In this document: piece after piece, positions 7,810 to 18,702 of the stretch
How the letters are laid out: every line of letters starts with the position of its first letter
Position numbering within the stretch: the first letter of the stretch is position 1
Assembly: GCF_000242595.2 (NCBI RefSeq)
Contig: NC_017098.1
Span: forward strand, 2,499,501 to 2,563,500
Length of the DNA stretch: 64,000 bases
Reading direction: 5' to 3'
Source of the DNA: Spirochaeta africana DSM 8902
GTDB lineage: Bacteria > Spirochaetota > Spirochaetia > DSM-27196 > DSM-8902
The notes under the pieces: model-generated
Seen by the model: the letters and a program-made list of their open reading frames with translations, nothing else
The model's database searches: none
Told to the model about the DNA's origin: nothing
Position numbers and translations under genes: made by a program

Positions 7810-8319
7810 CTACCGCTGGTTCTGCCCCTGACGGATTGCATCAGCGGCTTGATCACCAATCATTGCCGCCAGTCTGCTGGCTGTGCGGCGCAGATCACCG
7901 TTCGCGCGGTGAAAATCATCCGGCTGCAGCCTGTGGTTCAGCAGTACCCGAGGTCGTTGGACATCAATCACCGAAAAACTCACGCTGCGCTCCAGTTGAT
8001 GTTCGGCATCCGCCATTCGCACCTGCACCAGGTAGTCTGCACCATCCTCGCGGGCATACCGCACGGCACTGTACTCCATCTGTACCGGCAATCGATCGTC
8101 GGCCGAGCCGTTAGCAGCGATAAATCCCTGTGGAACATCAGACCACACGATAAAACCGGCGTCGAACAGCTCACCGATGACCGCTCCCTCTACCAGCCCA
8201 CGGAACTGGCCGGCCTCACCGTCCTGTGCAACCGTGACTACAACCTGTTGCGCCCCGACGGTCGCGACAACAGCAAACATCCCGAGTATAAAACCAACTA
8301 TCCGTGCTGTATGTTTCAT
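7810..8319 (-). CDS. secreted protein of unknown function
   Basis: A 169-residue protein that I do not recognise. Residues 1-23 (MKHTARIVGFILGMFAVVAT) form a clear signal peptide with an Ala-x-Ala-like cleavage site before QQVVV. The mature part alternates short beta and helix segments (FRGLVEGAVIGELFDAGFIVW, DYLVQVRMADAE, SVSFSVIDVQRPRVLLN). This resembles small periplasmic proteins with a TolB-N/LpoB-like fold that detect or assemble in the envelope, but that is only a guess. It is first in a likely two-gene unit with the SPOR-domain gene, so an envelope role is the best inference. Confidence 0.6.
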   Translation of the reverse strand: MKHTARIVGFILGMFAVVATVGAQQVVVTVAQDGEAGQFRGLVEGAVIGELFDAGFIVWSDVPQGFIAANGSADDRLPVQMEYSAVRYAREDGADYLVQVRMADAEHQLERSVSFSVIDVQRPRVLLNHRLQPDDFHRANGDLRRTASRLAAMIGDQAADAIRQGQNQR

Positions 8320-8418: not shown

Positions 8419-8988
8419 ATGAAAGTCTACATTTTGCAGGTTCACACCGGTTACGAACACCACACTGCTCAACGACTGCAGCAGTTGTCCCGCAGTATTA
8501 TCACGGACACCTGTCGTGTCGTCCTGCACTCACTCGACCGCGAGCTGCGTATCCGCGCCCGGGGGCAGCGTCGCCTCGTGCGGAAGCCGCTGTACCCCGG
8601 GTATATCTTCCTGGAATCAGACTGTCCGACTGACAACCTGCTGCAGCTGATCCAGCAGGTACCATCGGCGGTGCGGTTTCTGCAGGCCAACAGCGATATC
8701 ACCCCGGTTCGGCCGCAGGAGGAAACCATGCTGCGGCGACTGATGCAGTTCGGGCAGGTTATCCCGCGCTCACGGGTTGTACTGCAGCCCAAGCAGCGGA
8801 TCCAGGTGATACAGGGTCCGCTGCAGGGGCTTGAGGGGATCATTGAACGCGTAGATCGTCGGCGTGAACGGGTACGGGTACGGCTGGTTATGAGCAACAA
8901 GCCTTTCAGTTTTGATATCGGCATAGAGGTCGTCCAGCCGCACACTACGGACTCAGCCGTTGCGGCGGGATCGGGGGAGCAAGCATGA
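8419..8988 (+). CDS. NusG-family transcription elongation factor paralogue (RfaH/LoaP-like)
   Basis: A 189-residue protein with an N-terminal NGN domain (about 1-110; MKVYILQVHTGYEHHTAQRL, then YPGYIFLES) and a C-terminal KOW region (about 122-175; QRIQVIQGPLQGLEGIIERV). It is not the housekeeping nusG: it stands alone, without secE or ribosomal protein genes, at the head of a sugar-modification operon. Specialised NusG paralogues (RfaH, UpxY, LoaP) ride on RNA polymerase to help it through long polysaccharide or natural-product operons. The ATGA overlap with the next gene ties it to this operon. The specific recruitment element is not evident. Function as an operon-specific antiterminator is inferred. 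Confidence 0.8.
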   Translation: MKVYILQVHTGYEHHTAQRLQQLSRSIITDTCRVVLHSLDRELRIRARGQRRLVRKPLYPGYIFLESDCPTDNLLQLIQQVPSAVRFLQANSDITPVRPQEETMLRRLMQFGQVIPRSRVVLQPKQRIQVIQGPLQGLEGIIERVDRRRERVRVRLVMSNKPFSFDIGIEVVQPHTTDSAVAAGSGEQA

Positions 8989-10457
8989 TCGGAATGCGAA
9001 CACAGCGGGTATACATCCTGGGAGCCGGGATTGCCGGGGTATCGATTGCGAACGAGATTCGCCGCAAAGGGGTGTTCGGCGAGGTCGCGGCCTTTCTGGA
9101 TGATGACACTGCCAAAATCGGCACCAGGATTGAGGGCACACCAGTACTGGGACCAATCGAGGATATCCTGCCGCTGCTTGACAGCAGCCCCGGCGATGAA
9201 GCCCTGATTGCCATGCCGAGTGCCCCTCGTGAACGGCTGCGCAAGCTGTACGGCATGCTGGAGCAGATCGGTTTTTCCAGAATCCGTATCCTGCCCGGTA
9301 TTTCCCAGATTCTGGAGGGTGATGCCCATCTGATCCAGACCCGCGAGATCGATCCCCTGGATGTCCTGTCCCGCACGCCAGTCCAGATACATCTGCGCGA
9401 GTCGCTGGCATATCTGCGCGGAAAACGCGTACTGATTACCGGCGCCGGGGGGAGTATCGGCAGCGAAATTGCCCGCCAGCTGCTGAGCGGGGGCTGCGAA
9501 CGCATCTACCTGCTGGGACACGGGGAAAACAGCATCTATGAGATAGACCACGAACTGCGCATGCTTCAGAAGGAAGGGGTTGGTGAACAGGCCACCATCG
9601 TGCCGGTGATCGGCGAGCTGCAGGATGCCGACTACGTGCATTTCATCATGCAGCGGCTGCGTGCGGATGTCATCTTTCACTGCGCGGCGTACAAGCATGT
9701 GCCGCTTATGGAGGCCAATCCGGTCGCGGTAATCCGCAACAACGTCTTTGGTACCCGCAACCTGCTTGATGCAGCACGGGAGTACCCCGACTGCCGTATC
9801 GTCCTGGTTTCTACCGACAAGGTGGTAGCACCCTCAAGCGTATACGGGGCCAGCAAGCAGCTGGCGGAACAACTGGTTCTGCATGATGCTTCCGGCCGGC
9901 ATCTGGCTGTGCGCTTTGGCAACGTACTGGGGTCACGGGGAAGTATCCTGCCGTTGTTCAGGCGGCAGATCGAAAGCGGCGGGCCGGTTACCCTGACACA
10001 CCCGGACGCAACCCGGTTCTTTATGACGATTCCCGAAGCGGTCTCGCTGGTACTGAAGGCAGGCGGGGTTGGCAACGGCGGCGAACTGTATTTGCTGGAT
10101 ATGGGAGAACCGGTGCGCATACGGGATGTAGCCGAACAGCTGATCCGTTTTTACGGCTATGAACCGGATGTGGACATTCCTATCGACATTATAGGGCTGC
10201 GCCCCGGGGAAAAGCTGCAGGAAGCGCTATGGGATGACCATGAAACCCCCCAGCCAACCGAGTTCCCGCGGATTCAGCGTATTACCCGGACCCCCTGCCC
10301 TGCCGAACCGCTACAGCAGCTGCTGCAGGAACTGACACCGGTATGCACATTCGACCCCGCACAACCCCGGCTGTATCGCGATCGCCGGCGGCTGCGGGAT
10401 ATTCTGCGTCGCTACGTTCCGACCCTGCAGGAGGTACCCGATGAGCCGCGCTACTGA
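8985..10457 (+). CDS. CapD/FlaA1-type nucleotide-sugar 4,6-dehydratase
   Basis: A 490-residue SDR enzyme of the CapD family, which converts UDP-GlcNAc-type sugars to 4-keto-6-deoxy sugars. Residues 1-145 form a Rossmann-like regulatory domain (GAGIAGVSIANEI) without the transmembrane helices found in WbpM/PglF, so this copy should be soluble. The catalytic domain follows, with the NAD(P) motif GAGGSIG at 153-159, the STDK stretch and a YxxxK pair (Tyr287, Lys291 in VYGASK). Large WbpM-type relatives have Met at the Tyr position; the Tyr form is typical of the short FlaA1-type members (family knowledge from memory). It overlaps nusG-like by 4 bases and the aminotransferase by 17. A sugar product for glycan or flagellin modification is inferred. 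Confidence 0.85.
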   Translation: MIGMRTQRVYILGAGIAGVSIANEIRRKGVFGEVAAFLDDDTAKIGTRIEGTPVLGPIEDILPLLDSSPGDEALIAMPSAPRERLRKLYGMLEQIGFSRIRILPGISQILEGDAHLIQTREIDPLDVLSRTPVQIHLRESLAYLRGKRVLITGAGGSIGSEIARQLLSGGCERIYLLGHGENSIYEIDHELRMLQKEGVGEQATIVPVIGELQDADYVHFIMQRLRADVIFHCAAYKHVPLMEANPVAVIRNNVFGTRNLLDAAREYPDCRIVLVSTDKVVAPSSVYGASKQLAEQLVLHDASGRHLAVRFGNVLGSRGSILPLFRRQIESGGPVTLTHPDATRFFMTIPEAVSLVLKAGGVGNGGELYLLDMGEPVRIRDVAEQLIRFYGYEPDVDIPIDIIGLRPGEKLQEALWDDHETPQPTEFPRIQRITRTPCPAEPLQQLLQELTPVCTFDPAQPRLYRDRRRLRDILRRYVPTLQEVPDEPRY

Positions 10458-11652
10458 TGCCGAAAAGCCCGAACCGGTTCCATTTGGCAAGCCGTCGCTC
10501 GGAGTTGCCGAGGAGGACGCGGTGCTGCGCGTTATGCGATCCGGCTGGCTCACAACCGGCAGTGAGTGCCGGAGCTTTGAGCAGGAGTTTGCCCGTGCGG
10601 TAGACATGCCGCATGCGATTGCCGTTTCATCCGCCACTGCCGGTCTGCACCTTGCCCTGGAGGCGGCCGGTGTCAAACCTGGTGATCGTGTGGTGACCAC
10701 CCCCCTGACATTTGCTGCCACTGCCGAGGTAATCTGCAGCCTGGGCGCAGATCCGGTCTTTGCCGACATCGATCCGGACACGGGGAATATCTCCGCCGAA
10801 CGGGCGGCTCATGCGGTCGAGCAGAGCCAGGCAGCTGCCCTGATCCCGGTTCATCTGGGGGGGCTTACCTGCCAGATGCAGCCGCTGCAGGCGATTGCGT
10901 CCGGGTACCGCTGCAGCCTGATCGAGGATGCGGCACACAGCTTTCCCGGCGGCGATGAGCATGGGTATGCCGGCACCCAGAGTGATTTCGGGGTATACTC
11001 CTTTTATGCTAACAAGACCATCACCACCGGCGAGGGCGGGATGGTAGTTACCCGCGATACCGCGGCGGCCCGGCGAATGCAGCTGCTGCGCAATCACGGC
11101 ATCGATCGGGATGTATGGCATCGCTTTACCGATACCCGGGCCTCCTGGCGCTACGACATCACCGCCGCCGGGTTCAAGTACAACATGCCGGATCTGGCCG
11201 CAGCGATTGGCCGGGTACAACTCGGCAAAGCCCGGGAGCTGCAGCAGAAACGGCGCGCCATTGCCAACCGCTATCTGAATGAACTGCGAGACTGCGAATT
11301 CCTGCAGCTGCCGCCGGATGCCCCGGATCACTCCTATCATCTGTTCCAGATCCGGCTGCGAACCGGAATCCTGAGTATAGACCGTGACGAGTTCATCAAC
11401 AGACTGCAGCAGCAGGGGATCGGCACATCGGTGCACTACATTCCTTTGCATATCATGAGCTATTACCGGGATCGCTACGATCTGAAACCATCTGATTTCC
11501 CGCACGCACTGGACTGGTACGAGCGGTGTATCAGCTTGCCGATATATCCGGATTTGGAAGATTCCCAGATAGACCGTATACTGGATGCAGTGCGCGGCAT
11601 CGGCCGCTCCTGTCTGAAAGGCCTGACCGCCAGCAGCAACCGCCAGGCATAG
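10441..11652 (+). CDS. DegT/DnrJ/EryC1-family sugar aminotransferase
   Basis: PLP-dependent aminotransferase of 403 residues that normally acts on 4-keto nucleotide sugars, the product of the preceding CapD-type enzyme. Seen in the sequence: the substrate/PLP region AVSSATAGLHLALEAAG, the Asp-containing LIEDAAHSFPG motif (pyridine nitrogen contact) and the PLP Lys192 in FYANKTITTGEGGM. The C-terminal half contains IGTSVHYIPLH, typical of PseC/WecE-like members. The 17-base overlap with the dehydratase gene indicates tight coupling. The pair is equivalent to PseB/PseC or PglF/PglE logic (dehydrate, then aminate). I cannot tell the stereochemistry of the product. Confidence 0.88.
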   Translation: MSRATDAEKPEPVPFGKPSLGVAEEDAVLRVMRSGWLTTGSECRSFEQEFARAVDMPHAIAVSSATAGLHLALEAAGVKPGDRVVTTPLTFAATAEVICSLGADPVFADIDPDTGNISAERAAHAVEQSQAAALIPVHLGGLTCQMQPLQAIASGYRCSLIEDAAHSFPGGDEHGYAGTQSDFGVYSFYANKTITTGEGGMVVTRDTAAARRMQLLRNHGIDRDVWHRFTDTRASWRYDITAAGFKYNMPDLAAAIGRVQLGKARELQQKRRAIANRYLNELRDCEFLQLPPDAPDHSYHLFQIRLRTGILSIDRDEFINRLQQQGIGTSVHYIPLHIMSYYRDRYDLKPSDFPHALDWYERCISLPIYPDLEDSQIDRILDAVRGIGRSCLKGLTASSNRQA

Positions 11653-11671: not shown

Positions 11672-13825
11672 GTGGGACTGACGATAACCGATTTCTCACC
11701 AGTTTGCGTCTCTAATCTGACACGACCTGACATGCTGCATGCAGTCACGGTCCGGTCTCACAAGGCCCATGGACGCCTGCTGCACATTCGCACCCCGGAG
11801 CTGCCGGAGGGGTACCACCTGTTCACCGCGCGCGACCTCGGCACTGCCAACCTGATCGAGGTATGGGGAACCGAGGTTCCACTGTTTGCAGCCGAGGAAT
11901 CCTGCTACAGCGGTGAGCCGGTCGGGTTGCTGGTCGGCCCCGATCACGAGGTACTGCAGGAGCTGCTTGACCTTACCTCGGTCACCTTCGAGGAGCTGGA
12001 ACCCCAGTTCTCCCGGGAGGACATCGAAACACGACGCATTGTCCTGGAACGCCGCTTCGAGTCTGGTGATCCGGACAGCGACACCGCCGAGGGAACCCAG
12101 ACCATCGAAGGGGTCTATCGAACCGGCATTCAGGATCATCACTACCTCGAGCCCATGGGAGCCCTGGCAGAGCCTACCGCAACAGGGATGACGGTGTACT
12201 CCCCGTGTACGCACATCTTTATGGTCCGCGACATAGTTGCAGCGGTTGCCGGGCTGCCGCGAGCCGGGGTGGTGGTAGAGGCCTGCTTTCCCGGCGATGA
12301 CCTGGACGGGAAGCTGTGGTATCCAGCGATAATTGCTGCCCAGGCTGCATGGGCAGCCCGCACCCTGAACAGACCGGTTCGCATTCAGCACAATCATGCC
12401 GAGGATGCCCTGTACTCACCCAAGCGGGCCCCTATGACTATCCGGATGCTGACCGCTATCGGGGATGACGGCACCAAAAAAGCAGTGACAGCCGAGATGG
12501 ATATCGATATGGGCAGCTATCCGGTGGCAGCAGAAGCCGTGCTCGAACGGGCAATGCTGCAGCTCTGCGGGCGATACCAGCTTTCGTCACTGCAGATAAC
12601 CGGACGGGTTCTGAAAACCAACACCCCGCCGCTGGGTTTCTTTGATGGCTGGGGCGATGCAAGCGCCGCCTTTGCGCTGGAGACCCACTACAACCGGGTC
12701 GCCGAGGTGGCGATGGCCGATCCTGCCGAGTACCGTCGCAGCGCCCTGATCCCCGCCGGAGCGCGCCTGATAACCGGCGGTTTGATGCGGGAAAGCTGCA
12801 GCCCGCTGCGCTGTATGCAGGCGGTGATCACCGCCAGCGACTTTACCCGCAAGCATGCCGCTTACGAGCTGCAGCGCAAGCGGCGCCAGCACAACCAGTT
12901 CCAGGGGCAGGTTATGCGTGGTATCGGTCTGGCCCAGGTAAGCACGCCCCCGCTGCTGATCGGCAGCGGACGCAGCGGAAAACCGGCAACCGCCGGCATC
13001 CGGCTGGAAAGCGACGGCAGTGCCACCATTCTGACCTCGATGTATCCCGGCAGCGCCGGGGCCGAGCTGGCCTGGCGAACGGTAGTCAGCGAGACCCTCG
13101 CCCTGCCGCTGGCCCAGACCCGGCTTGCCGCACCGCGTACCGACAGTTGCCCCGATACCGGGCCGGAAACCCTGAGTCGCGGGATTACTATCTGCGCCAA
13201 AATACTGGAAACCTGTGCCCAGGCAATCAACAAGCGCCGTTTTCGGGATCCGCTGCCGATCGAGGTCCATCGATCGTTCCGCATGCCGCGTTCCTATCGG
13301 CAGGACAGCTCTGGCGCCACCGACCCTTATCCGCTGGCCGCTATTGGCGCGGCCGTGCTGGAGGTCGAGATCGAGCAGCGCACCCTGGATATCTCGATTC
13401 GGGGGATCTGGCTGGCGGTAGACGGCGGCAGGATTATCCAGCCTTCGGCGGCACTGCAGCGCCTGGAGCAAAACGTCTACAGTGCACTGGGATTCCTGCA
13501 CACCGAGGTTCTCGAGCTCCACCATGGCATGCTCTCGCCCAGCCATACGATTGGCTACCGCATACCGCGCTTTGGCGAATTCCCCGACCCCCAGATCCAG
13601 CTGCTGCAGCCCGACCGTAACGGCCCGCCCCTGGGTATCGGAGAACTGCCCGGGATGTGCATCCCGGCAGCCGGAATCCAGGCGATCAGCCAGGCATCAG
13701 ATGTGTACTTTGACCAGATTCCGATCTCGCCGGAGGTAATGTACCAGTATCGCAACGATGAACTGCCGGAAGCGGTCCAGCCTGCGGCAGTCGAGACGGA
13801 CCAGGAGAAGGAGGAACGGTCGTGA
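11672..13825 (+). CDS. xanthine-dehydrogenase-like molybdopterin subunit with degenerate cofactor motifs
   Basis: A 717-residue homologue of the large subunit of molybdenum hydroxylases (xanthine dehydrogenase, CO dehydrogenase, quinoline 2-oxidoreductase). The N-terminal substrate domain is present (AHGRLLHIRTPELPEG; CYSGEPVGLLV), then the cofactor region with TGIQDHHYLEPMGALAEP, close to the family QEHxYLEPxxALA. The pterin motif GGGFGGK is changed to GDDLDGK (208-214), and the RGFGxPQ segment to DGWGDAS (325-331). The catalytic Glu is kept: Glu658 in GIGELPG corresponds to GVGE. The start is GTG, with GGAGG upstream, 19 bases after the DegT gene. The stop overlaps the next gene by 4 bases. 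Mo-cofactor binding is doubtful; the enzyme may have a new role or act as a scaffold. Confidence 0.8.
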   Translation: MGLTITDFSPVCVSNLTRPDMLHAVTVRSHKAHGRLLHIRTPELPEGYHLFTARDLGTANLIEVWGTEVPLFAAEESCYSGEPVGLLVGPDHEVLQELLDLTSVTFEELEPQFSREDIETRRIVLERRFESGDPDSDTAEGTQTIEGVYRTGIQDHHYLEPMGALAEPTATGMTVYSPCTHIFMVRDIVAAVAGLPRAGVVVEACFPGDDLDGKLWYPAIIAAQAAWAARTLNRPVRIQHNHAEDALYSPKRAPMTIRMLTAIGDDGTKKAVTAEMDIDMGSYPVAAEAVLERAMLQLCGRYQLSSLQITGRVLKTNTPPLGFFDGWGDASAAFALETHYNRVAEVAMADPAEYRRSALIPAGARLITGGLMRESCSPLRCMQAVITASDFTRKHAAYELQRKRRQHNQFQGQVMRGIGLAQVSTPPLLIGSGRSGKPATAGIRLESDGSATILTSMYPGSAGAELAWRTVVSETLALPLAQTRLAAPRTDSCPDTGPETLSRGITICAKILETCAQAINKRRFRDPLPIEVHRSFRMPRSYRQDSSGATDPYPLAAIGAAVLEVEIEQRTLDISIRGIWLAVDGGRIIQPSAALQRLEQNVYSALGFLHTEVLELHHGMLSPSHTIGYRIPRFGEFPDPQIQLLQPDRNGPPLGIGELPGMCIPAAGIQAISQASDVYFDQIPISPEVMYQYRNDELPEAVQPAAVETDQEKEERS

Positions 13826-14301
13826 TACTCTCATTCATCCTGAACGGGGCCCCGGCCCAGACCGAAGCCTACCCGCATGTCGACCTGATGACCACCCTGC
13901 GGGATCGCTGCGGGATTACCAGTATTCGGCGCGGGGCCATCCAGCAGAACAGTGGCCTGTCGATGATCCTGATGGACGGATTGCCGGTCCCCTCGGTTCT
14001 GATCCCCTCCTTTCACGCGGAGGGCAGCGATATCATTACCTATGAAGGTGTAGCCAGCTCGGAGGAGTATCACGAAATCGTGCAGAGTTTCAGCCGCTCG
14101 AATATCCTGATCAACCCCCTGGCTCTGCCAACCCTGATACTGCTTACCTACTGGATTATTACCGAGAATCGGATGATACCCGAAAGCGAAGTCCGGGAAC
14201 TGCTGGGCGAGATAGCCTGCCGGGGCGGGGTCACCTCCCGCATCCTGCATGCAGTCCAGCAGGCACACCAGTACCGACGAATACGGATGCAGCATGAATA
14301 A
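13822..14301 (+). CDS. xanthine-dehydrogenase Fe-S subunit homologue lacking nearly all cluster cysteines
   Basis: A 159-residue protein, the exact size of the small 2x[2Fe-2S] subunit of molybdenum hydroxylases, and aligning with it almost without gaps. The framework is clear: ILNG at 6-9, TTLRDRCGIT at 24-33, LMDG at 50-53, ITYEG at 72-76, then EVRELLGEIACRG at 123-135. At the plant-type ferredoxin cluster the four Cys positions read Ala39, Ser44, Ser47 and Val59. At the second cluster (family QCGFCTPG and CRCTGY) they read Asn98, Ala101, Cys133 and Gly135. One of eight ligands remains, so neither cluster can form in the usual way. ATG overlaps the preceding stop by 4 bases. It is not a random pseudogene: the frame is open, coupled and full length. 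Confidence 0.82.
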   Translation: MILSFILNGAPAQTEAYPHVDLMTTLRDRCGITSIRRGAIQQNSGLSMILMDGLPVPSVLIPSFHAEGSDIITYEGVASSEEYHEIVQSFSRSNILINPLALPTLILLTYWIITENRMIPESEVRELLGEIACRGGVTSRILHAVQQAHQYRRIRMQHE

Positions 14302-15139
14302 GATCAGTCACCCGCCGGCCCGTCCATTCACCCTGCAGGAGGCGCTGCAGCTGCTGCGCCGGGATCCCGACAGCATCATTCTTGCCGGAAGTACCCACCG
14401 GCTCAGCAGCTCGCCGCCGCCAGAGTCGCAGCGACTGCCTCCGCCGCCTATCCTGAGTCTTGACCGTATCGAGGAACTGCGCCGGGTCAGTCGAACCGAC
14501 CGCTACCTTGAGTTCGGCAGCGGGGTAAGTCTGCAGCGGATCCTGCAGCTGGGACTGCAGATTCTGCCAGACCCCCTGCGCACATGCCTGGAAAGTGTTG
14601 GCACCCCGGGACTGCGTCGACTGGCCACCATTGGCGGTAACGTAATGATACCCGAAAGCACGATCGGCCTGGGTCTGGTACTGGCTACCCTTGATGGCAC
14701 CCTCGAGCTGCGACGGGTCGGCAGCAGTCGCCGACTGCCGGTGGCACGCCTCTACTCTCAGAACAGAAGCCTGGATGAAGGGGAACTGCTGACACGTATT
14801 CGCATCCCCAACAACTTTCCCACCCATGCCGTCTACAAACGCTTTGGCTCGCCCTACGACCACACCACTCACCCGCTGGGGGTTTGCGGGATCGCGACTC
14901 TGGAGAAGAATTCGGTAGAACGCTTTGTGTTCATTACCGGGGATATCAACCAGCCGCTTGTCCGCAACCGCGAGCTGGAAGCAGACATAGTGGGACAACG
15001 GGTTCCCTTTACCGCCAAAGAGTTCCAGGTGTTTCAGGAACGCTGGCACCAGACCCTGCTGACGCACAACCTGAGTGCGATTCAGATCGAGCGCAGCATT
15101 CGCATGTTTGTGTATTTTCTGACAGAGCTGCGCCCGTAG
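14294..15139 (+). CDS. xanthine-dehydrogenase FAD subunit homologue (CoxM/XdhB-like)
   Basis: A 281-residue protein resembling the middle, FAD-binding subunit of molybdenum hydroxylases. The family motif TIGGN is kept (in RLATIGGNVMIPE), as are GSGVSLQRIL and the GELLTRIRIP element of the C-terminal domain. The first FAD phosphate loop, usually AGGTDLL, reads LAGSTHRL and is weakened; the usual Asp after the TIGGN region is not seen. ATG 14294 was chosen because it overlaps the previous stop by 8 bases, like the other junctions here; an earlier in-frame codon at 14249 would give 15 more residues with no family match. It closes the six-gene operon. FAD binding is possible but not assured. Confidence 0.75.
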   Translation: MNKISHPPARPFTLQEALQLLRRDPDSIILAGSTHRLSSSPPPESQRLPPPPILSLDRIEELRRVSRTDRYLEFGSGVSLQRILQLGLQILPDPLRTCLESVGTPGLRRLATIGGNVMIPESTIGLGLVLATLDGTLELRRVGSSRRLPVARLYSQNRSLDEGELLTRIRIPNNFPTHAVYKRFGSPYDHTTHPLGVCGIATLEKNSVERFVFITGDINQPLVRNRELEADIVGQRVPFTAKEFQVFQERWHQTLLTHNLSAIQIERSIRMFVYFLTELRP

Positions 15140-15234: not shown

Positions 15235-18200
15235 ATGCCGAACTTTGTACATCTGCACACCCATTCTGATTTCAGCCTTCTCCATGCCACTACACGTATC
15301 AAGGACATGGTTGCCCGCGCAGCAGAACTGAATATGCCGGCGCTGGCAATGACCGACCTTGGCAATATGTTCGGGGTAATCCACTTCTACACTGCCTGCC
15401 GCAAGGCTGGCATCAAACCGATCGTGGGTACCGAGGTCTATATTGCCCCGAACGGACGGCTGACCAAAGAGAAATTCGAGGACGGCAATCGCCTGTCACG
15501 CCTGGTATTGCTGGCTCGCAACCTTGAGGGCTACCAGAACCTGCTCAAGATTTCCACCATCGGCTACACCGAGGGCTTTTATTATAAACCTCGTATCGAT
15601 GACGAGGTGCTGGAACAGCACAGTCAGGGATTGATATGCCTGACCGGTCCACTATCCGGCGAGGTCCCGAACCTGATTGTCCGCAACCGGGTTGATGAAG
15701 CCCAGGCACGACTTGAATGGTACATCCGGGTCTTCGGGCAGGAGCATGTATTCGTCTGTCTGCAGGATCACAACATCCCGGATGAGAAGATCGTCAACCG
15801 CACCCTGATTGAACTCGCCCCCCGACTGGGCCTGCCGCTGATCGCCACCAACGATGTCCACTACCTGAACCGTGAGGATGCCGTAGCACAGGATGCCCTG
15901 CTGTGCATCGGCTCGCAGCGCAAGCGCAACGAGACCAACCGGCATCGTTTCCATGGCGACCAGTATTATTTCAAGACCGCTGAGGAGATGGCGCAGCTGT
16001 TCCCCGAGCAGCCCGAGGCCTTGGAGAACACCCTGAAGGTTGCCGGGCTGTGTGAGCTGGAGATACCCCAGCCCGGCCCGCTGCTGCCCGATTACCATAT
16101 CCCGCCCGATTTTGAAACACCGGACGACTACCTGCGCCATCTGACCTACGAGGGACTGCGCAGTCGCTACGGCGAGATTACCGAGGAGATTGATGCCCGG
16201 GCCGATTACGAGCTCGGGATTATCATCTCGATGGGTTTCACCGGCTATTTCCTGATTGTATGGGACTTTATCCGCTACGCCCATGACAACGACATTCCGG
16301 TTGGTCCCGGACGGGGCTCGGGTGCCGGATCGATAGTAGCCTATGCCCTGGCAATTACCGACATCGACCCGCTCAAGTACAGCCTGCTGTTCGAACGGTT
16401 TCTGAATCCCGAACGGGTCTCGATGCCGGATTTCGACATCGACTTCTGCTTTGAACGCCGCCAGGAGGTCATCAACTACGTCACCTCCAAGTACGGTCAT
16501 GACCGGGTCGGGCAGATCATTACCTTCGGAACCCTGAAAGCCAAGGCGGTAATCCGGGATGTCGCGCGGGTGCTGGATCTGCCGTACACCGAGGCTGATA
16601 TGATCGCCAAGCTGATCCCCGACGACCTGAAAATGACACTCCCCAAAGCCCTGGAGGTAGAGCCCAAGCTGCAGGAGCTGAGGGAACGTGGCGGCACCCA
16701 TCAGGACCTTATCGAGATCGGCCTGCGCCTTGAGGGGCTGCACCGCCATGCCTCTACCCATGCTGCCGGGGTGGTTATCGGCAAAGAGGTGCTGACCGAG
16801 TACGTGCCGCTGTACCGCGACCCCAAGACTGCCGCGATCTCTACCCAGTTCACCATGGACCTGCTGGAGCCCTGCGGCCTGGTAAAGATGGACTTTCTTG
16901 GCCTGAAGACCCTCACCCTGATTCGCAACACCGAGAAGCTGATCCGCGAGCGCGGGATCGCGTTTGATATCGAGCAGGTCTCGGAGGAGGATCCCGCCAC
17001 CTTTACCCTGCTTGGTGAAGGCCGCAGCATCTGCGTCTTCCAGTTCGAGAGTGACGGGATGCAGGACATCCTGAAAAAGGCCAAGCCCAGTCGCATCGAG
17101 GACCTGATCGCCTTGAACGCCCTGTACCGGCCCGGTCCGATGGACAACATCCCGCAGTTCATCGAGTCCAAATGGAACCCCGCCAGCATTACCTACCCCC
17201 ACCCTGACCTTGAACAGGTGCTCAAGGAAACCTACGGGGTAATTGTGTACCAGGAACAGGTAATGGAGATCGTCCAGATCATCGGCGGTTTCAGCCTGGG
17301 CCAGGCAGATATCCTGCGTCGGGCGATGGGAAAAAAGAAGGAACAGGAGATGGCACGCATGGAGGTCGAGTACCTCCAGGGAGCCCGCGAAAAAGGCATT
17401 GCCGAGGATACTGCCAAGAGCATCTTCGAGCTGCTGAAGCCTTTCGCCGGCTACGGTTTCAACAAGTCACACGCTGCTGCCTACTCTGTTCTGGCCTACA
17501 AGACCGCCTACCTCAAGGCAAACTACCCGGCCGAATTCATGGCTGCCAACCTCACCAACGAAATCAACAACCCGAAAAACATGGTGAAGTACATGGCCGA
17601 GGCCCATGACATGGGGCTGGAAATTCTCCCGCCGGACATCAACACCTCGAAGAAGCATTTCAGTGTAGTCGATGGCAGAATTATCTACGGTCTGGTCGGG
17701 ATAAAGAATGTCGGCAGCAGCGCTGTTGATGCCATCCTGCATGAACGGGAGGCCAATGGCCCCTTCAGTTCGATGGATGAGTTCCTGGAGCGCATCGACA
17801 TGCGAACTGTAAACCGCAAGGTAATCGAGGTATTGATAGTAACCGGGGTGTTCGACTGCTTTGGCAGGGGGCGCCGACCGCTGCTGGAATTCCTTGGCCA
17901 GCTGGCCGATATTGCGGCTCAGAAACGCAAGAACCGGGAAGAGGGACAGGTAAGCCTGTTTGCCGACTCCGAGGAGGAGGAATTCCCCGAACTTGATTTT
18001 GCCGGCGTACAGGAGTTTCCGCTGCGCGAACTGCTGCAGCACGAAAAAGAGATCCTGGGGTTTTACTTTTCCGGCCACCCGCTGGACGACTACCGCGAAA
18101 CCTGGCTGCGTACCTCTACCTGCAATCTGGCCAGGATGGAAACACTTCCCGGCGAAAAGGAGGTCACCCTGCTGGGGCTGGTTACCTCTCTGCGGGTGAT

Positions 18201-18702
18201 CTTTACCAAGCGGGGATCCCAGATGGCGATCGGTACGATAGAGGACTACAACGGTAGCATCGATTTTGTTATGTTTGCCGAGGCCCTGGAGCCATACCGT
18301 GATCTGCTGCAGGAGGATGCAATCCTGGGCGTGCTGGGAAAGATCGATACCTCGCGTGACCGGGTGCAGATTGTCGCCAGCGAGATCAGGCTGCCCGACG
18401 AGCTGGATGAGCGTGATATCGGGGTAGTGCATATCCGGCTGCGCCAGGACGGCACCAGCGAAAAGCAGCTGCATGAACTGCGGGCATTCCTGTCCAACGA
18501 TGAGCATACCGGCTGCTGTCCGGTATTTTTACATATCCCCCGCGACCCGAAGCCCGAAGTAATTATCGAGGTGTCGGCCGAGTTTCGCACATCTTCCCGC
18601 CCCGAGGTACTGCAGTCTCTTCGTACTTTTCCGGCAGTCGAGCGTGTATGGCGGGAGATCGAAGCACCCAAGCCGCAGGAAGCGAGTCCTGCACTGACCT
18701 GA
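15235..18702 (+). CDS. dnaE: DNA polymerase III subunit alpha
   Basis: Replicative polymerase catalytic subunit, 1155 residues, the normal DnaE size. The N-terminal PHP domain starts MPNFVHLHTHSDFSLLHATT, with ALAMTDLGNMFGVIHFY and VGTEVYIAP. The C-family polymerase core has GPGRGSGAGSIVAY and the catalytic PDFDID motif with Asp401 and Asp403 (the same numbers as in E. coli). Further conserved stretches are RPGPMDNIPQFI, YQEQVMEI and FNKSHAAAYSVLAY. The C-terminal part has HhH and an OB-fold region (EVTLLGLVTSLRVIFTKRG). It is followed 10 bases later by yggT. Its own promoter separates it from the preceding glycan/XDH-like operon. Confidence 0.98.
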   Translation: MPNFVHLHTHSDFSLLHATTRIKDMVARAAELNMPALAMTDLGNMFGVIHFYTACRKAGIKPIVGTEVYIAPNGRLTKEKFEDGNRLSRLVLLARNLEGYQNLLKISTIGYTEGFYYKPRIDDEVLEQHSQGLICLTGPLSGEVPNLIVRNRVDEAQARLEWYIRVFGQEHVFVCLQDHNIPDEKIVNRTLIELAPRLGLPLIATNDVHYLNREDAVAQDALLCIGSQRKRNETNRHRFHGDQYYFKTAEEMAQLFPEQPEALENTLKVAGLCELEIPQPGPLLPDYHIPPDFETPDDYLRHLTYEGLRSRYGEITEEIDARADYELGIIISMGFTGYFLIVWDFIRYAHDNDIPVGPGRGSGAGSIVAYALAITDIDPLKYSLLFERFLNPERVSMPDFDIDFCFERRQEVINYVTSKYGHDRVGQIITFGTLKAKAVIRDVARVLDLPYTEADMIAKLIPDDLKMTLPKALEVEPKLQELRERGGTHQDLIEIGLRLEGLHRHASTHAAGVVIGKEVLTEYVPLYRDPKTAAISTQFTMDLLEPCGLVKMDFLGLKTLTLIRNTEKLIRERGIAFDIEQVSEEDPATFTLLGEGRSICVFQFESDGMQDILKKAKPSRIEDLIALNALYRPGPMDNIPQFIESKWNPASITYPHPDLEQVLKETYGVIVYQEQVMEIVQIIGGFSLGQADILRRAMGKKKEQEMARMEVEYLQGAREKGIAEDTAKSIFELLKPFAGYGFNKSHAAAYSVLAYKTAYLKANYPAEFMAANLTNEINNPKNMVKYMAEAHDMGLEILPPDINTSKKHFSVVDGRIIYGLVGIKNVGSSAVDAILHEREANGPFSSMDEFLERIDMRTVNRKVIEVLIVTGVFDCFGRGRRPLLEFLGQLADIAAQKRKNREEGQVSLFADSEEEEFPELDFAGVQEFPLRELLQHEKEILGFYFSGHPLDDYRETWLRTSTCNLARMETLPGEKEVTLLGLVTSLRVIFTKRGSQMAIGTIEDYNGSIDFVMFAEALEPYRDLLQEDAILGVLGKIDTSRDRVQIVASEIRLPDELDERDIGVVHIRLRQDGTSEKQLHELRAFLSNDEHTGCCPVFLHIPRDPKPEVIIEVSAEFRTSSRPEVLQSLRTFPAVERVWREIEAPKPQEASPALT

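Follow-up and report, generated by a model that had tools for sequence, protein, structure and literature searches.

The window analysed here is a 64,000-nucleotide stretch of the Spirochaeta africana DSM 8902 genome (GCF_000242595.2, NC_017098.1, positions 2,499,501 to 2,563,500, forward strand). Coordinates below are those of the window, and all features described lie on its plus strand. Positions 11672-15139 contain a coupled set of large, small and medium subunit genes (L-S-M) of the xanthine-oxidase family, identified from the open reading frame list, Pfam searches and sequence comparison with PDB entries.

Gene organization of the L-S-M locus

L (11672-13825; 717 aa) has the xanthine-oxidase-family fold but has lost the molybdopterin site. 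It contains the Pfam domains MoCoBD_1 (5e-45), MoCoBD_2 and a/b-hammerhead, and its AlphaFold (AF2) model (pLDDT 89.2) gave xanthine oxidase as the best PDB match (Foldseek E=1.4e-53, TM ~0.87). S (13822-14301; 159 aa) adopts the fold of the two-[2Fe-2S] subunit without the cluster ligands; it matched Fer2_2 (6e-9), and its AF2 model (pLDDT 91.2) was closest to the small chain of CO dehydrogenase (Foldseek E=2.3e-11, TM 0.85). M (14249-15139; 296 aa as an open reading frame) was assigned to the FAD-binding-5 fold (FAD_binding_5, 1.3e-26). Homology of all three subunits to the xanthine-oxidase family is thus supported, by AlphaFold single-chain models for L and S and by sequence for M, in agreement with the xanthine/CO dehydrogenase subunit order that had been proposed for the trio. 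Neither L, S nor M reached an NCBIfam equivalog cut-off.

The L and S frames overlap by 4 nt at a GTGA sequence that is preceded by a Shine-Dalgarno sequence, AGGAGGA. At the S/M junction the favoured reading is an ATGAATAA overlap where S ends, which would put the probable M start at 14294 and give a protein of ~281 aa, matching the length usual for the family; use of the longer start at 14249 is improbable. All three frames are intact and translationally coupled with good ribosome sites, and the original prediction of intact frames with overlapping starts therefore holds.

Three genes precede L. The first gene of the cassette encodes a LoaP-type antiterminator, a NusG paralogue (8419-8988; NCBIfam antiterm_LoaP, 125.9 bits against a cut-off of 125), which is conserved upstream of CapD in many Spirochaetia. 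It is followed by a CapD-type nucleotide-sugar 4,6-dehydratase of the SDR family (8985-10457; Polysacc_synt_2, 9.5e-103), a protein with ~52-67% identity among cassette relatives, and by a DegT/PseC-like PLP-dependent sugar aminotransferase (10441-11652; DegT_DnrJ_EryC1, 2.3e-116). The latter contains the PLP-lysine motif (SFYANKTITTGEGG) and scored 363 bits against NCBIfam PseC, under the cut-off of 423.5 bits. Downstream, dnaE (15235-18702; from the open reading frame list) begins after a gap of ~95 nt; it is a frequent 3' neighbour of the cassette and lies outside the complex. The window thus has the LoaP/CapD/DegT or dnaE synteny of a spirochaetal cassette.

In ascarylose-type deoxysugar synthesis, a DegT-fold dehydrase (E1) is paired with a [2Fe-2S] flavin reductase (E3). 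The cassette resembles this system in pairing a DegT-fold enzyme with a flavin/Fe-S protein. However, L-S-M is unrelated to E3, and the DegT protein of the cassette reads as an aminotransferase. The analogy was rejected because the window DegT retains the PLP lysine.

Cofactor sites in the window and across the family

The former molybdopterin loop of L (12293-12313) reads GDDLDGK, in the context FPGDDLDGK, instead of GGGFGGK, as had been predicted and as seen in an alignment of 61 cassette and 12 genuine molybdenum-type large subunits. The GQG loop of molybdenum hydroxylases is also absent from window L, where SAG occupies its place, and the AFRGFG segment reads FFDGWG. In S, seven of the eight Fe-S cysteine columns are replaced, leaving one, as the original prediction stated. 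The four cysteines of the former plant-type cluster region (aa 39-59; 13936-13998) are A, S, S and V, and the former helical-domain cluster region (aa 98-135; 14113-14226) contains N, A, C and G where its relatives have C, C, C and C. In M, FAD loop 1 (14384-14398) is AGSTH rather than the classical AGGTD, and FAD loop 2 (14627-14641), TIGGN, is intact. Damage to the FAD site had been proposed; it is apparent in loop 1, loop 2 is intact, and window M may still bind a flavin. NASPxxD, which follows FAD loop 2, is absent from window M and from nearly all cassette members. As some molybdenum-type spirochaete medium subunits also lack NASPxxD, this motif cannot be used to judge FAD loss.

The changes seen in the window differ in age. 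The molybdopterin loop was present in none of the 66 cassette large subunits (61 cassette plus 5 Borrelia sequences) and in 12 of 12 genuine spirochaete molybdenum-type large subunits. The cassette proteins have a consensus of their own at this position, G.HLDGKLWYPSL. A large-subunit tree separated one cassette clade, which includes the window, from one molybdenum-type set (SH-aLRT 99). As the cassette forms a single clade, the alignment and tree show that the molybdenum site was lost once and early, in the ancestor of the class Spirochaetia, and the family is almost certainly molybdenum-free.

The Fe-S ligands have a different history. All eight cysteines are kept in 50 of 70 small subunits, with the plant-type set in 59/70 and the helical set in 60/70, and the full-cysteine state requires at least seven changes on the tree. 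Window S is the only one of the 70 that lost both clusters, and its nearest same-order relatives (~36% identical in L) keep both cysteine motifs wherever S was read. By these sequence comparisons, window S lost its clusters within its own lineage. GGN of FAD loop 2 is kept in 47 of 69 medium subunits. Thus, of the conserved ligand loss envisaged by the original prediction, the molybdenum part is ancestral and stands, whereas most homologues keep their Fe-S cysteines and the GGN of FAD loop 2. The motifs QEHxYxEP, SPKRA and PDSGP of the old pocket also survive in the cassette L profile.

Genes for cofactor synthesis were searched for in the same genomes. PF06463 alone is a weak marker of molybdenum cofactor (Moco) synthesis, matched only partially in several lineages, and MoaC was therefore added as a second marker. 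Neither MoaA (C-terminal domain) nor MoaC had a match in the S. africana genome, which is 99.98% complete, and its sole MoCF-domain open reading frame (258 aa) looks CinA-like rather than MoeA-like. As MoaA and MoaC are undetectable, S. africana probably makes no Moco. MoaC was missing from 50 of the 74 cassette genomes examined, and no MoaA or MoaC was found in T. pallidum-like or Borrelia-like genomes either.

These data bear on the possibility that the annotation is right and the complex works as a molybdenum hydroxylase, be it a xanthine, quinoline or CO dehydrogenase, with an imported cofactor. The cassette does share with the xanthine dehydrogenase/xanthine oxidase family (XdhABC, CoxLSM, QorLSM) the subunit set, domain order, operon coupling and predicted fold (TM ~0.85-0.88), there is whole-chain similarity to xanthine oxidase, and the name xdhACB is in print for Borrelia (PMC10566445). 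However, the molybdopterin loops are altered in every cassette member, window S has no Fe-S ligands, the FAD site is partial, and cassette hosts, including S. africana and the T. pallidum-like and Borrelia-like genomes, often lack detectable Moco synthesis genes. We consider a functional molybdenum hydroxylase extremely improbable, and xanthine dehydrogenase activity of the cassette complex would be very unlikely. Given the loss of the molybdenum site, and of the Fe-S sites in the window, the names in databases and papers (xanthine dehydrogenase, quinoline oxidoreductase, CO dehydrogenase) are probably wrong for this complex.

Distribution, selection and homologues in Treponema and Borrelia

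S was searched for in 393 genomes of the phylum, and nearly every member of Spirochaetia had a match. Of the nine members of the class that lacked one, seven were picked up by a profile, although some of these may be of the molybdenum type. The order LoaP-CapD-DegT-L-S-M, often followed by dnaE, was found in ~16 Spirochaetia families (78 regions; family groups as given by the genome search). With a molybdopterin loop in 0/66 members, this distribution bears out the suggestion that the system is conserved among spirochaetes and misleadingly named. CapD and/or DegT adjoin L-S-M in 52 of 69 loci. The other 17, all five Borrelia loci among them, have neither gene nearby, indicating that the link to sugar metabolism is not obligatory. 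The best 80 further loci from a contig scan were all spirochaetal and agreed with the census; the scan tells nothing about other phyla, and as it used a DGKLW pattern its loci are not independent evidence for loss of the molybdenum loop. Apparent natural L-S or S-M fusions, such as an 1100-aa open reading frame in locus L054, were rejected as long overlapping frames in GC-rich DNA.

Selection was estimated from close pairs among the relatives of the window genes. Treponemal and related pairs gave dN/dS values of 0.02-0.20 across the three subunits; those from Borrelia spanned 0.05-0.38, depending on the method, against 0.05-0.21 for the PtsI control. The overall range of 0.02-0.38 is not near 1. 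In the window, L retains 89% of the family-conserved columns, which is the cassette median, M retains 92%, also at the family median, and S departs from conserved columns almost solely at its cysteines. Because L and M are typical and S deviates almost only at cysteines, the pattern points away from general decay and to a complex that still works but has given up its clusters. The proposal that selection maintains the trio is in keeping with both results.

The window genes might still be pseudogenes in progress with no present function, since seven cysteines were lost from one subunit and the evolutionary branches are long. We regard this as very improbable: the three coupled frames with their ribosome sites are intact, conserved residues of L and M are at the median, S is modelled as folded (pLDDT 91), the changes cluster on cysteines, and dN/dS is low in relatives. 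A functional complex is very probable.

Homologues are present in two pathogenic groups. A 1.14 Mb genome (L078), which we interpret as T. pallidum or a sister of it, carries CapD-DegT-L-S-M. The original prediction referred to an annotation of TP0080 as quinoline 2-oxidoreductase, next to CapD and DegT genes. A literature search on TP0080 found nothing relevant. TPASS_0079 and TPASS_0081 have been named xanthine-dehydrogenase-like (PMC4403809, PMC5951579), which agrees with the L078 gene set, and in substance the original statement holds. The T. pallidum TP0079-TP0081 genes, like the window, form a CapD-DegT-L-S-M cassette without the molybdenum loop. Unlike the window, they keep the helical-domain ligands and the FAD loops GGGT and TIGGN, and of the clusters only the plant-type one is lost.

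In five Borrelia-like genomes (L073-L077), L-S-M lies between ligA-like and ptsI-crr-htpG genes. From gene order and their published description, we equate these genes with bb0554-bb0556. Phelan et al. (2023) reportedly studied Borrelia 'xdhACB' as a 'putative xanthine dehydrogenase'. The Borrelia proteins matched the cassette profiles (S, E=1.8e-17; L, E=7.8e-9). Borrelia L sits on a branch of length 3.6 and cannot be placed reliably within the cassette tree; its homology is based on the profile comparison. The B. burgdorferi genes have the homologous L-S-M order, but the plant-type cluster ligands and FAD loops are gone, the helical CX2C...CXC is kept, and LoaP, CapD and DegT are not alongside. 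Among Borrelia transposon mutants, those in bb0554-0556 showed sensitivity to H2O2 and TBHP and became depleted when peroxides were applied (PMC5333916); a tick-larva screen had bb0554 and bb0555 among its hits (PMC6516651). A review names the cluster xdhACB and describes it as encoding xanthine dehydrogenase (PMC10566445).

Possible function of the molybdenum-free complex

The best overall explanation for these results, and one we consider likely, is that L-S-M is a maintained molybdenum-free complex descended from a xanthine-dehydrogenase-type molybdenum hydroxylase. L lost its molybdopterin site once, in an ancestor of Spirochaetia. In most descendants the two [2Fe-2S] sites are still there, as are parts of the FAD site; they may plausibly still pass electrons between the flavin and the S/L interface, and would be unable to hydroxylate via molybdenum. 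In the window lineage S has also lost both clusters while L and M stayed typical, so that this complex would have to do without electron transfer from M to L or back. It is on balance probable that a single repurposing of the trimer, in the earliest Spirochaetia, gave it a new molybdenum-free function, and that almost every spirochaete, reduced pathogens included, kept it even where Fe-S or flavin sites were lost.

Electron transfer could itself be that function. A molybdenum-free flavin/[2Fe-2S] oxidoreductase or redox sensor directed against oxidants, of which the window complex would be a derived form with its relay lost, is a tenable though tentative alternative. The eight cysteines and the FAD loops are kept by most members, purifying selection is evident, and disruption of the Borrelia homologues confers sensitivity to H2O2 and TBHP (PMC5333916). 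However, L and M persist where ligands were lost, which happened through at least seven changes on the tree, and Borrelia, without the plant-type ligands and both FAD loops, still shows this phenotype.

With low confidence, we favour a flavoprotein complex that binds a substrate and works for the sugar pathway of CapD and DegT. The surviving pocket motifs and the presence of CapD and DegT next door suggest that the complex binds a small molecule and is linked to an amino-sugar pathway, although the pathway step is speculation. L would most likely bind a small molecule in the old substrate pocket; this might be a nucleotide sugar or an amino sugar that CapD and DegT produce. M would then be its partner, in a flavin or a regulatory role, and S would form a structural bridge. 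That the ligand comes from the sugar pathway is speculative and somewhat unlikely. The conserved operon with CapD and DegT and the dispensability of the cofactor ligands would suit a pure scaffold or assembly platform that joins these two enzymes and has no small-molecule ligand. This is unlikely, as the old pocket positions are conserved and L-S-M persists without CapD or DegT in Borrelia and others.

If the trimer was indeed repurposed for a new molybdenum-free function, the window and Borrelia complexes would mark its natural end points, operating with hardly any redox cofactors or none. The complex is class-wide, and not even the genome reduction of syphilis- and Lyme-type spirochaetes has removed it. 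Its molybdenum-free status redirects the reading of the Borrelia oxidative-stress and tick-survival phenotypes, and the natural gradation among members, which runs from a complete Fe-S set to no ligands at all, offers a way to ask what the trimer does once its chemistry is removed.

LoaP and the divergent reading frame

The first gene of the cassette encodes the antiterminator LoaP (window 8419-8988), which accompanies the large, small and medium subunit genes even at some loci devoid of CapD and DegT (L070, L072). Divergent from the cassette is a 169-aa ORF (window 7810-8319, minus strand) with a signal-peptide-like start and no match in Pfam.

Molybdenum-type operons

Intact xanthine dehydrogenase operons of the molybdopterin-loop type, with GGAFGGK and all 8 Cys, were identified in two spirochaete genomes, G234 and G336 (loci L097 and L098). 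No MoaC match was found in either genome and MoaA was absent among the matches listed. These genomes may make the cofactor by a pathway not yet recognised or import it, or the genes may fall in gaps of the assemblies.

Cysteine ligands of the small subunit

Only the seventh cysteine was lost in one treponemal group (L051, L060-L062, L090, L092 and L095), in which P, F or W replaces the first C of the CXC pair. These small subunits would need a three-cysteine cluster or another ligand. The small subunits of five Borrelia-like loci (L073-L077) retained a CX2C...CXC motif, even though Borrelia reportedly has no iron requirement. A metal other than iron may be bound there.
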